Origin: Candidatus Fermentibacterota bacterium
GTDB taxonomy: Bacteria > Fermentibacterota > Fermentibacteria > Fermentibacterales > JCC-6
DNA length: 43,690 nt
Direction: 5' to 3'
Assembly (NCBI GenBank): GCA_030592645.1
Contig: JAUVIR010000029.1
Location: 1 to 43,690 of the forward strand
The position numbers and the translations under genes are program-made. Of this stretch, positions 11,356 through 18,729 are shown piece by piece (the stretch's first letter is position 1; each line of letters begins with the position of its first letter). The notes beneath the pieces are model-generated. The model saw nothing but the letters and a program-made list of their open reading frames with translations, was not told where the DNA came from and did not search any database.

Positions 11356-12258
11356 TCAGGGGGATAGCGGTATTTCCGGATAATACTCTCTCAGTTTCTC
11401 TGCAAGCTCCCTGCAGGAAGCCTCGGTGCTTGAGTAGATCTCCTGGGCCCTGTGAAACTCAAGCATGCCGATATTCCGGATATCAGGCTTGATGTAGATA
11501 TCAGGCTGACTGATTTCCAGTTTTGTCTTTACGATCGATCTCTGCATTATATCAAACATCTCAAGAACCGCTTTGACCGCTCCGGGCGGTTTTGAGGATT
11601 CGGATTCCGCATTTCCCAGAACATCTACAGCAACGATCAGATCGCAATCGTCCAGAACGTCGAAGGGTACCGGATTTACGCCTCCACCGTCAATGAGTAT
11701 CCGCTCTCCGTATTTTACCGGAGTGAACAACCCCGGCAGCCCCATGCTTGCCTTGACCGCCTTGAGAAGATTTCCCGAAGAGAGCACTGTCTGTTCAGAC
11801 GCCCAGAAGTCGGTTGCAACGACCTTCAATGGTATTTCAAGATTCTCAAACCTGTCTGTATGAATGGCATCGTAGAAATACTTCATTACAGAATCACCTT
11901 TAAAGATCCCAGGTCCCAGGAAATCGATATCCATGAACTGAACCAGTCTCTTGATATCTTTTAGCAGTTCTCCGGGGGAGCTGCTTTTCCCTACAACTGT
12001 CTCCTGTACCAGACTGCGAATTTCGGAGCCCTTGACTCCAGACGCGTACATGGCACCCAGCACGGCACCTATGCTGGTTCCCGCAATACAGCAGGGTCTG
12101 ATCCCCATGCTGTCAAGTACTTCAAGAAGCGGAATATGGGCAAGTCCTCTTGCTCCGCCCCCCCCCAGAGCAAGGCCCAGCCTGATACTTTTCTCTTCGA
12201 TGTCCGGCTTTCTCCTGCATAGAAGAGTCCGGATTCTTTTCATCAGATGGTTACTCAT
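11356..12258 (-). CDS. Patatin-like phospholipase
   Basis: This 300-residue protein has the oxyanion motif LGLALGGGGARGLAHI at 27-42 and the nucleophile elbow AGTSIG with S62. It also has the catalytic Asp in LIDGGGVNPVP. Together these are the Ser-Asp dyad of RssA/patatin-type lipid acyl hydrolases. It has no signal peptide, only a basic start (KRIRTLLCRRK), so it is probably cytoplasmic or at the inner face of the membrane. I chose the ATG at 12258, which overlaps the previous stop by 8 bases. A longer frame to 12357 exists but would overlap that gene by about 100 bases. Same-strand spacing links it to the dehydrogenase genes. Confidence 0.88.
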   Translation of the reverse strand: MSNHLMKRIRTLLCRRKPDIEEKSIRLGLALGGGGARGLAHIPLLEVLDSMGIRPCCIAGTSIGAVLGAMYASGVKGSEIRSLVQETVVGKSSSPGELLKDIKRLVQFMDIDFLGPGIFKGDSVMKYFYDAIHTDRFENLEIPLKVVATDFWASEQTVLSSGNLLKAVKASMGLPGLFTPVKYGERILIDGGGVNPVPFDVLDDCDLIVAVDVLGNAESESSKPPGAVKAVLEMFDIMQRSIVKTKLEISQPDIYIKPDIRNIGMLEFHRAQEIYSSTEASCRELAEKLREYYPEIPLSP

Positions 12259-12625
12259 CCGTTTCCACATCCTGATATGCATGATAGTCTTCAGGTTTCC
12301 CGCCATCATGCCATGCCATGTAATTCGCATTCCAGTTAAGAGTGCTTTCAAGCTCATGCGCTGTAATGTTCAGTGTATCAGCACACAATCCTATCAGCTT
12401 ATCTCTCGGCAGAGTCTTTCCAAACATCTCTTTTGCTTGATTTACAGTGGAACAGCACAGCCACGAGCTTGGAGATCCGGCATGATGCCAGTAATTTGAA
12501 GAGCTGTTCAGATATTCAAAATCCGCTTCGGAGAATTTGTACTCCTGACCTTGATGATCAATTCCTGCTTTCCTGTTGTAGTAAGACAGGTATGTTTTCA
12601 ACTGTTCTTCATCCTTGAAGGTCAT
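12251..12625 (-). CDS. Small acidic protein of unknown function
   Basis: This 124-residue soluble protein is rich in Tyr, Trp, Asn and acidic residues. Examples are LKTYLSYYNRKAGIDHQGQEYKF, NSSSNYWHHAGSPSSW and WNANYMAWHDGGKPEDY. It has no signal peptide or membrane segment and no family I recognise. The ATG at 12625 has GGAA at a suitable distance. Its stop overlaps the phospholipase start, so it is probably the first gene of the operon running to 7137. Confidence 0.65.
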   Translation of the reverse strand: MTFKDEEQLKTYLSYYNRKAGIDHQGQEYKFSEADFEYLNSSSNYWHHAGSPSSWLCCSTVNQAKEMFGKTLPRDKLIGLCADTLNITAHELESTLNWNANYMAWHDGGKPEDYHAYQDVETDE

Positions 12626-12661: not shown

Positions 12662-13396
12662 TCAGTTAACAATGATCAGCTTGTCAGAATCTTGATGCTC
12701 GGCTCCCACTCTGCAGCTGAGTATGTAAGCACCGCTGGGAAGTCCTGAAAGTTTTACGGTCCGGATCGTAGTGCCTGCCGATAATAACTCATCAACAAGT
12801 ATCCGGGAGCTCCTTCCGTCAATGGAAAAGAGTTCTACCAGGCATATCCCCGGCTGAGGAGGAGAAAGCCTGAGAACACAGTTCTCTCCCGCCGGACTGC
12901 CGATAACACTTATCAGTTCTTCCTCCTGGGTATCATTCAACTCGATTCCCTGCGGTTCTGCGGCCAGATAGAGTCGAAGTTGCCCATAGAAATCACCAGA
13001 GATAATATCCAGTCGGCCGTCATCGTTCCAATCCACAACCTGTGGATTCGGTGTAGCTGCGTGTCCTCAAGTACTGTAGATTTCGATTGGTTCATTATTC
13101 GCCTGCAGATATGTGTAATCCTCAAAAACGGGATTACCTGTCTCTCCCTGGTTCAGGTAGAGTCTGAAATGTCCGTAACACGGGTCTCCCATCCCGAAGG
13201 GATCCGGGTTCTGGTTGACCTCAAAGCCCTCCGAAATAATAAGGTCTGCCAGCCCGTCAGCATTCCAGTCCGCCATGCATGGAGAAGCTAAGTTTTCCAC
13301 TTCAATACCCCCGCCGATCTCCACCGGCGGCTCGAACACGGGTTGTGCTAACACAGTTGAAACCAGTACGACTGCTGGCACTGCAAGATATTTCAA
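12662..13396 (-). CDS. Putative secreted selenoprotein A: FG-GAP repeat protein with in-frame TGA
   Basis: Read through one TGA (13069-13067, residue 110), this is a continuous 244-residue protein. A TTG start behind GAGG gives the signal peptide MKYLAVPAVVLVSTVLAQ. FG-GAP-type calcium loops come next: DWNADGLADLIIS before the TGA and DWNDDGRLDIISG after it. A C-terminal beta domain ends in a type IX-like tail (LSGLPSGAYILSCRV...LIIVN). No other stop or frameshift is present, and the sequence around the TGA aligns with the divergent neighbour at 13739. A hairpin with GGT in its loop begins 18 nt after the TGA. Selenocysteine insertion is inferred; a nonsense mutation is the alternative. Confidence 0.7.
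13030..13048 (-). promoter_or_regulatory. SECIS-like hairpin of gene A
   Basis: The 8-bp arms AATCCACA and TGTGGATT enclose a GGT loop, read on the minus strand. The stem starts 18 nt and the loop 26 nt after the TGA, within the spacing used by bacterial SECIS elements. SelB-type elements need G and U in the apical loop, and both are present. Confidence 0.55.
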
Positions 13397-13738
13397 GCTG
13401 ATTCCTCTCTTTTATCATTTGTTATACAATGAGTGCTGCCTGTACTATCCATCTTGAGCTGCTGCTTCACTTCTGAAACGCATTTCTCATAACAATTGTT
13501 CCTTGAAAACACAGGATTTATCTGCAGTCCAGTTTCCCCACATAGCAATATCGATGGTAATCCCGTTTTGTCAATACTTTACAGGGCTGTTTGAGTGTTC
13601 GAGGCTGTCTGCTGAAACTGAATAATCATATGTTTCCAGAAACCATTCAGGAAACCTTGTTACTCTGATACCTTTCCATTATTGTACCAATGTTGTCGGA
13701 AAACAATCGGTTTACAGGTTCTTATTCCGGGGGGTATC
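13397..13738. other. 342-base divergent intergenic region between selenoprotein candidates A and B
   Basis: No gene, repeat or RNA is evident. A possible plus-strand promoter for gene B lies at 13656-13684, TTGTTA then TATTGT with a 17-bp spacer, which is weak. The region must drive gene A leftward and gene B rightward. Confidence 0.3.
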
Positions 13739-14959
13739 ATGAGAATATGCTTGTTTGCAGTGCTGTCTCTCTGCCTTTCGGCTGCGGCCGAGGTGCCGGA
13801 TTACCTGCCTCCCTTCAATGTAATGGCTAATAGCGCGCAGATCGAATTGTCCATAGGACACGCAAACCCTCTTATTACAGATTGGAATGGAGATGGTCTG
13901 AAAGATCTTATCCTTGGCCAGTATTCTTCAGGAAAGCTTCGATACTACGAGAACAACGATTCGAATGATTCTCCGATGTTCGCAAATTATACATTCATGC
14001 AGGCTGACGGATCTGATATCTCACTAACATCCGGTTGATGCACGGGAGCGACAAATCCACAGGCTGTGGATTTTAATGGTGATGGACTGGATGACCTCAT
14101 AGTCGGCGAAAGAGATGGGTATGTCAACTATTTCAGACGGCTCGCTGATGGAACTCTTACCAGTGAAGGCAGAATTCAGGCCGGCAGTACAGACCTTGAT
14201 GTAGGTAACAACTCTGCCCCCTTTGTTTTCGACTGGGACAATGACGGATTGCTCGACCTGATCGTTGGTCGCGAATCCACTTCAGGCGGAAGCCTCTACC
14301 TTTATCTTAATCAGGGAACCCCGGGCAATCCTCTGTTTAGCAGCTATACGCCGGTCATGAAGGGCTCCTCACCAGTTGCCTGGCCAAGAAGCGTTCCTCA
14401 CATGGAGGATATGAACGGAGACGGCCTGCTGGACCTTCTTGTAGGAGAGGACAACGGGCATACCTATTACCTCGAGAATTCAGGAGCAACGGGTGCGCCG
14501 GTATTTGTGACAAGCGCAGCAATAACCGTGAACGGAACTCCCTTTGCCTGGCCAGCGGGGCAGACGGATGCCACCGTTTATGTAAATGACTGGAACGAGG
14601 ATGGAATTCTGGATATCGTCCAGGGGAATTATACCAAGTACCTCTTTGTGTTCCTTGGAAACGATCCGACGGGCATCGGCACCCATTCAGAGGCGCCGGA
14701 GAGCGGAACCCCGCTTACCCTTCTATTCAACCCGGTGCGAGGTTCATTAGCATATAGAATATCTTCGGTTCAGCCTGTGCCGGTTACCGTAAGCCTTATC
14801 AGTATGGACGGAAGAATGGTGAACAGGTGGGATCTGGGTACGATCAGCGGAGTCACTGATCACACTCACATCATTTCTGAACTGCCCACCGGTGTTTATT
14901 CAGTAGTTTCCTCTGTGAATGGAAATATCTCATGTTGCCAGATCGTCATTATTCAGTAA
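13739..14959 (+). CDS. Putative secreted selenoprotein B: FG-GAP repeat protein with in-frame TGA
   Basis: Read through one TGA (14036-14038, residue 100), the gene encodes 406 residues. The ATG at 13739 follows GGGGGG and gives the signal peptide MRICLFAVLSLCLSAAAE. At least five FG-GAP/VCBS calcium loops follow: DWNGDGLKDLILG, then after the TGA DFNGDGLDDLIVG, DWDNDGLLDLIVG, DMNGDGLLDLLVG and DWNEDGILDIVQG. These fit a secreted beta-propeller. The C-terminus is a type IX-like sorting domain (SELPTGVYSVVSSVNG). The codon after TGA is TGC, giving a Sec-Cys pair. A hairpin starts 14 nt downstream. Gene C follows after 18 bp. Confidence 0.75.
14053..14073 (+). promoter_or_regulatory. SECIS-like hairpin of gene B
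   Basis: Perfect 9-bp arms at 14053-14061 and 14065-14073 enclose a GGC loop. The stem starts 14 nt after the TGA and the loop 23 nt after. Its sequence is nearly the same as that of gene A. The loop has G but C instead of U, so SelB recognition is less certain than for A and C. Confidence 0.5.
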
Positions 14960-14977
14960 AACATATAAGGGGGTTCT

Positions 14978-15760
14978 ATGAAATTCGCTGTTACAATTGT
15001 TTCTCTGTTCCTGTTCGCAGGCATCTGTATGGCAGACTATCAGATAGTTGCTACTTTCGATGCTCCGGACACGAACATATCCGGGCTTGGCTACGGAAAC
15101 GGCTCGCTGTGGGCTGTTGATGGTGTCACAGAGTACGCCTACGAGATTGATCCTGCCACCGGCAATGTGCAGAACTCCTGGTACTGTGCCAATTCCACAA
15201 AATTGCCCTCAGGTTTGACTTTCGCCAACAACACTGTTTACATCTCCATGGGCAACCCGCCAAGCCTCACGCTGTCATACTGCTACAGGTACAGCACCTC
15301 GGGAGTATATCTGGGACAGTTCTCACTTGATTGTTGAGGAAGCGATTTAGACCGGGAGGTTACCGGTCTCGCTACAGGAAACAGTAGAATCTACGGAGCA
15401 GGCGTTGATGCTCAGACCATGAAGGAAGTTCTGGAGATCTACAGTTACACAGGTTATCTTCAGACAGGTCCGGAATTCATGCTCGAGCTGGGAATGGACT
15501 TCTACGACATTGCCTGGTACAATGGCAATTACTGGTACGCATGCAATGATTCTGCGTACCCGATTCGAGTTTACAATGGAAGCGGAGGTCTTGTGGAATC
15601 CGTGAGCTCTTCGGTTCTTCCAGCCGCCCACGGCATGACTTTCGATGGGGATGGTTATCTCTGGGTGAGCAACATGAACACAGATGAGATATACAAGATC
15701 GATCTGAATGCGACTGCACTCGAGCCTTCAACCTGGGCATCCATCAAAGCCACTTTCTAG
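14978..15760 (+). CDS. Putative secreted selenoprotein C: beta-propeller-like protein with in-frame TGA
   Basis: Read through one TGA (15335-15337, residue 120), the gene encodes 260 residues. The ATG at 14978 follows AAGGGGG; the signal peptide is MKFAVTIVSLFLFAGICMA. Repeated blocks such as ISGLGYGNGSLWAVDG, PSGLTFANNTVYIS, YDIAWYNGNYWYAC and HGMTFDGDGYLWVSN fit an NHL/SMP-30-like beta-propeller. They resemble the secreted protein at 40783. There is no type IX-like tail. The codon before TGA is TGT, giving Cys-Sec. A hairpin with GGTT in its loop starts 11 nt after the TGA. Gene B lies 18 bp upstream, so the two are one operon. Confidence 0.75.
15349..15369 (+). promoter_or_regulatory. SECIS-like hairpin of gene C
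   Basis: The 7-bp perfect arms AGACCGG (15349-15355) and CCGGTCT (15363-15369) enclose a 7-nt loop GAGGTTA with the GGU expected for SelB binding. The loop starts 18 nt after the TGA, nearly the spacing I recall for E. coli fdhF. It is the most canonical of the three hairpins. Confidence 0.65.
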
Positions 15761-16772: not shown

Positions 16773-18617
16773 TTATTCAATTACTACGAACCGCTGAGTC
16801 GCAGTGAACCCTCCCGCTTCCATCCGAACGAAGTAGATGCCTGCCCTTTGAGAGTTTAGTTGTACTTCCTGCTGACCGGCGGGAAACTCACAGTTAACTG
16901 GATTGCCTATTAACCTTCCAGTGATATCAAATATGCACAATTGAACAATACAAGGTTCTGGAATAGAGAATTCCAACTTCACCAATCCAGCAGCAGGATT
17001 GGGTGTAACGCCATAAAGAATATATTCGCCGACAGTTGGATCAACCGTGATTCCGGTAGGACTCCAGGTAACAGTGATGTCTTCAAGAGTTGGCGAAACA
17101 GATGGATCAGGTCTTTCAATAAGAACTCTATACTGGAAGTAACTGTCGTTATCAGCAAGAATCCCCTCAAGACTGCATGGTGCAGTTAATGTGTCGGACC
17201 AGGTTCCCATATCTTCCGGGTCGTCAGAAGCGCGTACTAAAATTGCAAGAGTGCATCCAGCAGGAACGTTAGCAGTCCAGTCTATATTATCCCAATCGGG
17301 ATCATTACCAAGGTACAGAATAGAGGATTCAACCCAGCCCTCAAGAGAAGGTCCAACAAAGTCGATCCAGTATAATTCAGTTTCGCCTGACATGGATGCC
17401 CATCTACCGACAGCATCCAGGTAACCGCTCTCATCGATGTCCGCAACAGAAAAGCATCCTATACCACTTGAAGCATTCCAGAAAGAATGCCGCTCCCATC
17501 TCAATGCATTACCACTGATGTTTTCGTACCAGACCAATACTTCAGGATATTTCTCGTAACCCAGAACATCCATATCGCCATCACAATCAATATCCATTAA
17601 TACTGTTGGAAAAGACGGCCCGGATAAGTCGAATATTTTCCTATGGTTCCAGTTGCTTCCCGAACCATCGGTATTAAGAAACAGTTCCAGGTTATAATTT
17701 GACTCGGTAGTATAACCAGTCAGGAGATCTATATCTCCATCAAGATCCCAATCGTATGTCAATCCGGATCGTGTGCTATGCGGTCCGGCTAAGATAGAAT
17801 GAGTGTCCCAGATTCCTTGACTTACCTGCTCAATCCAGCCCAGGCGATATGGAGTGGATCCATCTCCGCAGAAGATATCCACATCACCATCCCCATCTGC
17901 ATCTGCTGCCCCGAGCCAGCTGGGATAACCAAAGTAACCGGTTGTATAAACGATAGACCAGTCATGTCCGATTCCATCAACATTCTCAAAGATAATGACA
18001 TCATCGGAGGACTTTGCACAACCAACCGCATCAAAGTCACCATCTCCGTCAATATCAGTATGGATTATCTTCCATGCCCAGTCATAACCAAGAGCTATTG
18101 GGTATCCCTGCCAGGAATCGCCAGTTCCATCCAGATTTTCGTAGTAGTAGAAATCATCACCCACGGCGATCAGGAAATCGATATCACCATCATCGTCCAG
18201 ATCAACTGGATCTATGCAGTAAGTTTCGTAGTATGTCACAGGAAATGAGTGGATATCCCATTGCTGACCTGACCCATCAATATTCTCAGCCCAGAATACT
18301 GAATCCAGTGGAGTATTACTATACGCCACATCGATATGACCATCACCATTAACATCGCATGCAATTGCATACCTTATTAGTACGTCACCCTTAAGTATAA
18401 AGTGAGATTCATCATCTTTTATACTTGTCCCCAGAATCAACGACCCGGGAACAGTTGGACAAATCCCTGAACTTGAGCAGAACCGATTAGTCCAATCCGA
18501 GTTAGGTCCTGGAACTCCGGATCCTCCGGACCAGTCTGTCTGAGTTGCTGAATCTGCATTGGAAAGAGAAAGGGGAACAATCAAAAGAACAGCCAGGAGT
18601 AGTTTTGTCACTTTCAT
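16773..18617 (-). CDS. Secreted VCBS/FG-GAP repeat protein with type IX-like sorting tail
   Basis: This 614-residue protein starts at the ATG at 18617, seven bases after GGAGA, with signal peptide MKVTKLLLAVLLIVPLSLSNA. From about 85 to 410 it has Asp-rich calcium loops: DVNGDGHIDVAYS, DLDDDGDIDFLIA, DIDGDGDFDAVG, DADGDGDVDIFCG, DWDLDGDIDLLTG and DIDCDGDMDVLG. These fit a seven-bladed beta-propeller. A fibronectin-like segment follows, ending TVTWSPTG. The last 85 residues (GVTPNPAAGLVKLEFSIP, then GRLIG, then AGIYFVRM) are a clear type IX-type sorting domain. No in-frame TGA occurs here, unlike its relatives A and B. Confidence 0.9.
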   Translation of the reverse strand: MKVTKLLLAVLLIVPLSLSNADSATQTDWSGGSGVPGPNSDWTNRFCSSSGICPTVPGSLILGTSIKDDESHFILKGDVLIRYAIACDVNGDGHIDVAYSNTPLDSVFWAENIDGSGQQWDIHSFPVTYYETYCIDPVDLDDDGDIDFLIAVGDDFYYYENLDGTGDSWQGYPIALGYDWAWKIIHTDIDGDGDFDAVGCAKSSDDVIIFENVDGIGHDWSIVYTTGYFGYPSWLGAADADGDGDVDIFCGDGSTPYRLGWIEQVSQGIWDTHSILAGPHSTRSGLTYDWDLDGDIDLLTGYTTESNYNLELFLNTDGSGSNWNHRKIFDLSGPSFPTVLMDIDCDGDMDVLGYEKYPEVLVWYENISGNALRWERHSFWNASSGIGCFSVADIDESGYLDAVGRWASMSGETELYWIDFVGPSLEGWVESSILYLGNDPDWDNIDWTANVPAGCTLAILVRASDDPEDMGTWSDTLTAPCSLEGILADNDSYFQYRVLIERPDPSVSPTLEDITVTWSPTGITVDPTVGEYILYGVTPNPAAGLVKLEFSIPEPCIVQLCIFDITGRLIGNPVNCEFPAGQQEVQLNSQRAGIYFVRMEAGGFTATQRFVVIE

Positions 18618-18729
18618 GAACACATCTCCATTCAAAAAATTATCAGTAATAACCTTTTACAGCCGAGTGGCTGCAGAATGTGATGTGCTGTGTTGCGAAG
18701 TTCCGGGCTGACCAATCAGCTCAGTTCAA

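Follow-up and report, generated by a model that had tools for sequence, protein, structure and literature searches.

Known selenoproteins and propeller proteins

The closest described systems are the bacterial selenoproteins that depend on SelB and a SECIS element within the gene, such as the selenocysteine (Sec)-containing type of SelD, and several groups of beta-propeller proteins. Most characterised selenoproteins have a thioredoxin-like fold (PMC13188914). CU motifs occur in the metal-related selenoproteins HgcA, SaoC, and MbdU, and Sec is a possible metal ligand in some selenoproteins, including SaoB and SaoC (PMC13188914). The Sec-containing tail of animal thioredoxin reductase reads GCUG. 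Among the propeller proteins, the FG-GAP group includes integrin alpha, CRTAC1, and secreted bacterial repeat proteins, and the integrin alpha propeller has seven blades. The glutaminyl cyclases of plants and bacteria (2iwa, 3nol, and 3mbr) are five-bladed.

The DNA analysed here (43,690 nucleotides, referred to as the window) contains three neighbouring genes, A, B, and C, each with one internal TGA codon. Genes B and C resemble the SelB-dependent selenoproteins in the in-frame TGA, the sel machinery, the G-loop hairpin past the TGA, and, for the B family, the Cys-containing homologues, but differ from them in their propeller fold, their predicted export, and a family membership outside the inventories that we compared. 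FG-GAP_3 is matched by both A and B, and the B-family profile matches integrin alpha chains and CRTAC1; unlike those proteins, B has a predicted Sec beside a Cys in an interblade loop and, judged from predicted strands, about five blades. The best fold matches of C are the glutaminyl cyclases, with a TM-score of about 0.65, but these share only 13–16% identity with C, a Sec is predicted in C, and membership of C in the cyclases is not implied. The DCUGS motif of C shares with the thioredoxin reductase tail an adjacent Cys-Sec pair followed by Gly, but it is located in an internal propeller loop and not in the C-terminal tail of a flavoenzyme.

No FG-GAP or propeller selenoprotein family is listed in Table 1 of PMC9312934, Table 3 of PMC12013277, or Table 1 of PMC13188914, a 2026 review of 119 prokaryotic families whose table includes families from the Haft papers and which also mentions the groundwater study of Deng et al. 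This comparison was made by family name, although for several entries the name is just "hypothetical protein" and no domain is given, and sequences were compared only through an NCBIfam scan. That scan (E up to 0.1) returned no selenoprotein model for A, B, or C; only the tail and unrelated models were matched by A and B, and none by C. Full-text literature searches yielded no relevant title linking selenoproteins or selenocysteine to FG-GAP or VCBS repeats, beta-propellers, type IX secretion, or Fermentibacter, and an earlier mention remains possible in supplement S9 of PMC4807772 (Planctomycete candidates), the Haft papers, or the study of Deng et al. The B and C families are likely an unlisted group of secreted selenoproteins, with both function and export inferred.

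Gene models and in-frame TGA codons

The features of the three genes are collected in Table 1. With the exception of the one internal TGA, no in-frame stop is present inside any of them, and the second TGA of gene A (codon 245) is its natural stop. Under a model of independent, identically distributed letters, the chance of a frame remaining open past the TGA is approximately 9e-4 for A (134 codons), 1e-7 for B (306 codons), and 6e-4 for C (140 codons). TGA terminates 9 of the 21 stop-to-stop frames of at least 250 codons in the window, these being mechanical frames that are not all genes. The original prediction, that each gene is open through a single TGA and that TGA is an ordinary stop elsewhere in the window, held on both counts, with the end of A itself a further TGA stop. 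A hydrophobic, signal-like stretch was recognised at the N-terminus of A, B, and C by eye, without the use of a predictor. Gene C also has a weak match to DUF6923.

Table 1. Coordinates of the three genes, their putative Sec codons, and the associated hairpins
Feature	Positions	Strand	Description
Gene A	12662-13396	minus	TTG start; predicted exported FG-GAP protein, shortened B-family member
Gene A putative Sec codon TGA	13067-13069	minus	Codon 110; context STUGHAATPNPQ
Gene A hairpin	13030-13048	minus	8 bp, loop GGT; stem begins 18 bases past TGA
Gene B	13739-14959	plus	Ends TAA; predicted exported FG-GAP propeller, about five blades, sorting-tail-like C-terminus
Gene B putative Sec codon TGA	14036-14038	plus	Codon 100; context SGUCTGATNPQ
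Gene B hairpin	14053-14073	plus	9 bp, loop GGC; stem begins 14 bases past TGA
Gene C	14978-15760	plus	Ends TAG; predicted exported beta-propeller, sequence family distinct from B
Gene C putative Sec codon TGA	15335-15337	plus	Codon 120; context DCUGSDLD
Gene C hairpin	15349-15369	plus	Up to 7 bp, loop GAGGTTA; stem begins 11 bases past TGA

Selenocysteine machinery and TGA-bearing genes in the same genome

The genome to which the window belongs (93% complete) encodes selA, selB, selD, and a tRNA-Sec with the anticodon TCA. A search for selA, selB, selC, and selD had been proposed as a check, with the absence of sel genes as the refuting result; the sel genes and tRNA-Sec were found and this refutation did not occur. 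The selD gene has one TGA inside the match, in a UxxK context, which is the motif listed for selenophosphate synthetase (PMC9312934, Table 1), and this Sec-type selD serves as a built-in positive control.

When the genome was searched with a profile, TGA was present in 5 of 89 matches, and no other match scored higher than these five; the site is also covered by two weak matches, neither of which has a TGA. In total, nine TGA-bearing propeller genes were identified in this genome, five of the B type (A included) and four of the C type. More than 60 weak profile matches are restricted to the C-terminal tail region and are scattered over many contigs, suggesting that a type IX-like tail is possibly common to many exported proteins of this organism.

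Conservation within the order

Sixty genomes were searched with A, with B, and with C. A TGA-bearing match of the B type is present in at least 36 of the 42 genomes from the same order, one of the C type in at least 40, and one of either type in at least 41. The remaining genome, G013 (73% complete), has no selA match either. A selA match was obtained in 38 of these 42 genomes; the genomes without one are 61–77% complete, and G031, G035, and G036 have only selA fragments below the cut-off. The strongest B match without a TGA (G002:C152) is a contig-end piece that stops short of the site, and the first site-spanning B match without a TGA (G006:C35:13822-15006) reads GETTGATNPQ. The genome under study falls within the genus group of G006.

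The sequence past the TGA is under purifying selection in both B and C. In all seven comparisons of B with its orthologues, changes are more numerous at third codon positions than at first or second positions, both before and after the TGA; against the orthologue at L021, for example, the changes past the TGA number 27, 20, and 98 at the first, second, and third positions. Third-position changes likewise dominate past the TGA in all five comparisons of C with its orthologues. Decay past the TGA in homologues with neither Cys nor TGA at the site, which would have refuted the original prediction, is thus not what B and C display. One C-type homologue (L070 / L224, G001:C7) has a second in-frame TGA further downstream, which could encode another Sec or reflect an error or decay.

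Hairpins past the TGA

Hairpins were searched for past each TGA, accepting only loops with a G in the first two bases, in real and shuffled sequences alike; because the search required it, the loop G is not independent evidence. Four B loci in which the TGA is offset (L187, L188, L197, and L203) and loci with flanks that were too short are omitted from these counts and from the hairpin alignments and Cys-spacing counts given below. Stems of 6 bp or more were found in 82 of 91 B members, 36 of 40 C members, and both A members. Mean stem lengths in real sequences versus synonymous shuffles are 7.3 versus 4.3 bp for B, 7.2 versus 4.7 bp for C, and 8 versus 4.5 bp for A. Folding-energy z-scores against the same type of shuffle are modest, with means of -1.42 (B), -1.22 (C), and -0.59 (A). 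For the genes in the window, stems of 7–9 bp had been predicted 11–18 nt past the TGA; the positions held, and in gene C 7 bp are possible, of which 6 are paired in the energy-minimum fold.

Covariation was judged against shuffled and slid controls after the removal of near-identical sequences, which left 41 B and 23 C hairpins. In the C alignment, 91.8% of cells pair, compared with at most 51.6% when the alignment is slid, and both sides vary in six of eight pairs. One pair is A-U in 13 sequences and U-A in 10, and another is C-G in 10, A-U in 9, and G-C in 4. RNAalifold returned the identical eight pairs for this alignment, which is exactly the C hairpin. In the B alignment, 85.9% of cells pair versus at most 43.3% when slid, both sides vary in four of seven pairs, and one pair is A-U in 24 sequences, G-C in 12, and G-U in 3, with single instances of C-G and U-A. 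The B stem was counted directly with a structure drawn from one member sequence, which biases the share of paired cells upward, and no consensus structure emerged when the 41 B hairpins were analysed with RNAalifold. A hairpin of the SECIS kind just past the TGA is therefore conserved as a structure, in B without support from RNAalifold, and the two families are a source of covarying bacterial SECIS hairpins. An Rfam search of the window returned no family at the gathering score.

In members from WOR-3, other residues are encoded after the Sec and the hairpin is still present. A tandem paralogue in G006 (L086:820-2022, minus strand) has GETTGATNPQ in place of GUCTGATNPQ, such that both Sec and Cys are gone and the SECIS-like hairpin is retained; this is likely a recent loss of Sec. 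In a more diverged paralogue without Sec, the hairpin is gone too.

Homologues in other phyla

Genome contigs from multiple phyla were scanned with the B-family alignment and the best 80 loci, the maximum allowed, were retained. By a text rule applied to the aligned residues, which is rough, the Sec column is TGA in 34 loci and Cys-Cys in 5; 11 loci have a Gly or Ser before a Cys, and the other 30 fit none of these classes. The alignment of one of the five Cys-Cys loci (L141) is gapped. Titles such as WOR-3, Chitinivibrionales, Planctomycetota, Verrucomicrobia, and Thermodesulfovibrionia occur among the TGA loci, placing the B family in several bacterial phyla; in the phylum of G047, a match was found in one of four genomes. 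Homologues with Cys at the TGA position had been proposed as a check, and for the B family the site indeed carries TGA or, in other phyla, sometimes Cys (the 5 of 80 Cys-Cys loci). For the C family, only distant relatives without TGA were found, with a nearby Cys in several of them.

The association of TGA with selA was examined for 48 of the 80 loci, comprising 33 of the 34 TGA loci (L158 was left out), in 32 genomes, and 15 non-TGA loci: four of the five Cys-Cys loci, with L141 omitted as gapped, ten of the 11 Gly/Ser-Cys loci, and L135. selA scored over the cut-off in 29 of 32 genomes with TGA and in none of four with Cys-Cys; among the 11 remaining genomes, it did so in 7. Fisher p-values are 0.0006 for TGA versus Cys-Cys and 0.002 for TGA versus all 15 non-TGA genomes, the groups having been formed post hoc. 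Of the three TGA genomes without selA over the cut-off, one has a 70-bit fragment, one an 18-bit match, and one no match. Some homologues have Gly or Ser at the Sec site and retain the following Cys. Since selA is present in 7 of the 11 genomes with neither TGA nor Cys-Cys, neither Sec nor Cys is obligatory at this site in all relatives, Sec-using bacteria included.

Predicted fold, Sec-Cys pair, and export

A and B are FG-GAP repeat propellers, with FG-GAP_3 scores of 31.3 and 91.2 bits, respectively, against a Pfam cut-off of 26.9. The predicted structure of B (mean pLDDT 89) has about five four-stranded blades and a strand-rich tail, and a propeller is likewise predicted for C, from a model built on three sequences (pLDDT 78). 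According to the strand lists of the models, with no coordinates measured, Sec residue 100 of B falls between strands 81–86 and 105–110 and Sec residue 120 of C between strands 111–116 and 128–134, so that the predicted position of the Sec in both proteins is the loop connecting the outer strand of a blade with the inner strand of the following one. A Cys is found at position +1, -1, or -3 relative to the Sec in 127 of 133 members (UC in 87, CU in 32, and CxxU in 8); gene A is among the six without one.

Type IX-like tails had been predicted for two of the genes, and this claim held in part: the scores of A (21.9 bits) and B (19.7 bits) with the sorting-tail model TIGR04183 make such tails plausible but are just below the curated cut-off of 23. 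No sorting-tail match was obtained for C. The genome does encode a homologue of the SprA translocon (SprA_N, 50.5 bits; cut-off 27).

Gene A as a shortened member of the B family

Gene A had been placed on a par with B and C, which held only in part, as it belongs to the B family but in shortened form. It lacks about three blades that are present in its relatives in G012 (L089) and G022 (L184), both of which retain the TGA. Compared with the G012 homologue, gene A has 10, 7, and 38 changes at the three codon positions upstream of the TGA; downstream the counts are 39, 32, and 64, in an alignment disturbed there by the absent blades. Gene A is an internally shortened copy that is perhaps decaying, with a product that may not fold. 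Support for Sec is weaker for A than for B and C, and we regard it as a weak member. The G022 relative retains the roughly three blades as well as the tail. In gene A these blades but not the tail have been lost, and in the G012 relative (L089 1280-1975, minus strand) most of the tail but not the blades, indicating repeated in-frame loss in this lineage of the B family.

Proposed function and alternative explanations

B and C are very likely working selenoprotein genes in which the TGA encodes Sec, an inference made from sequence alone, as Sec has not been observed in the protein. The secreted propeller selenoproteins of the original prediction are thereby supported, and the system is larger than proposed, with two propeller families, one of them in several phyla. 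SelB bound to the hairpin just past the TGA would deliver Sec-tRNA (anticodon UCA), the ribosome would insert Sec, and translation would then be completed to give an exported beta-propeller; without selenium, the product would be expected to end inside the propeller. Outside the cytoplasm, the Sec-Cys pair would cycle between the selenol/thiol and selenenylsulfide states, with peroxides, disulfides, or an extracellular electron carrier as inferred substrates. Such extracytoplasmic redox chemistry is the leading candidate for a single function, ahead of metal or metalloid binding, although it is inferred without an assay and is a little more apt to be wrong than right.

The alternative that survives best, which is possible, gives the Sec-Cys pair a role in capture or detoxification instead of redox catalysis: outside the cytoplasm, it would bind a soft metal or metalloid, with Hg, As, and Cu as examples. 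In its favour are the CU motifs of metal-related selenoproteins and the proposed role of Sec as a metal ligand (PMC13188914), and propeller loops often contain binding sites. Against it, a comparison of the genes around 33 TGA loci, made by sequence and not by annotation, revealed no recurrent metal-resistance neighbour, and the varied spacings UC, CU, and CxxU are also compatible with a redox pair.

A second alternative, that the locus consists of three adjacent pseudogenes each broken only by a TGA, is very unlikely. Gene A, about three blades short of its relatives and maybe decaying, speaks for it. However, the TGA is retained in orthologues and paralogues while third positions vary freely on both sides, and the hairpins covary. 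The judgement that pseudogenes are the less likely explanation thus held for B and C, for which we reject a pseudogene cluster on the conserved TGA, the selection past it, and the covariation; for A it is still possible.

The third alternative, that an altered code or a suppressor tRNA, and not Sec insertion, lets TGA be read as another amino acid, is all but excluded, as TGA is a stop elsewhere, including at the natural end of A, and occurs in just 5 of 89 profile matches in this genome (genome-wide reassignment being rejected on these grounds), the Sec machinery is present, 5 of 80 homologues have Cys-Cys at the site, and no positive evidence for a changed code or suppressor tRNA was found in the analyses run.

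If B and C are selenoproteins, then two apparently exported propeller families carry Sec, as opposed to the thioredoxin-like fold of most characterised selenoproteins. A bolder reading is that two unrelated exported propeller families with Sec-Cys in the same kind of interblade loop reflect an unrecognised extracellular selenium chemistry. One of these families is spread across several phyla and both have multiple copies per genome here; we lean slightly against this reading. Gene callers that stop at TGA truncate or split such genes, which are therefore, by inference, probably mis-annotated in many environmental genomes.

Genomic neighbourhood

TGA-bearing genes of the B and C types adjoin each other in the window and, among the fetched loci, in L021 (G012), L093 (G025), and L108. 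When the neighbours of the 33 TGA loci were compared, only the family itself was widely recurrent (23 loci). A second cluster of nine resembles frames antisense to the family gene, and the remaining clusters comprise two loci each.

Within the window, a 124-amino-acid frame without a Pfam hit (12251-12625, minus strand) shares about 100 bases with the beginning of a frame for a patatin-like phospholipase (11356-12357, minus strand). A further neighbour (16773-18635, minus strand) is an FG-GAP gene without an internal TGA, and its tail scores above the Pfam cut-off. At locus L110, from the bacterium isolate PL23a_bin.125, there is a tandem array of six B-type genes, all of which have a single in-frame TGA at the site.
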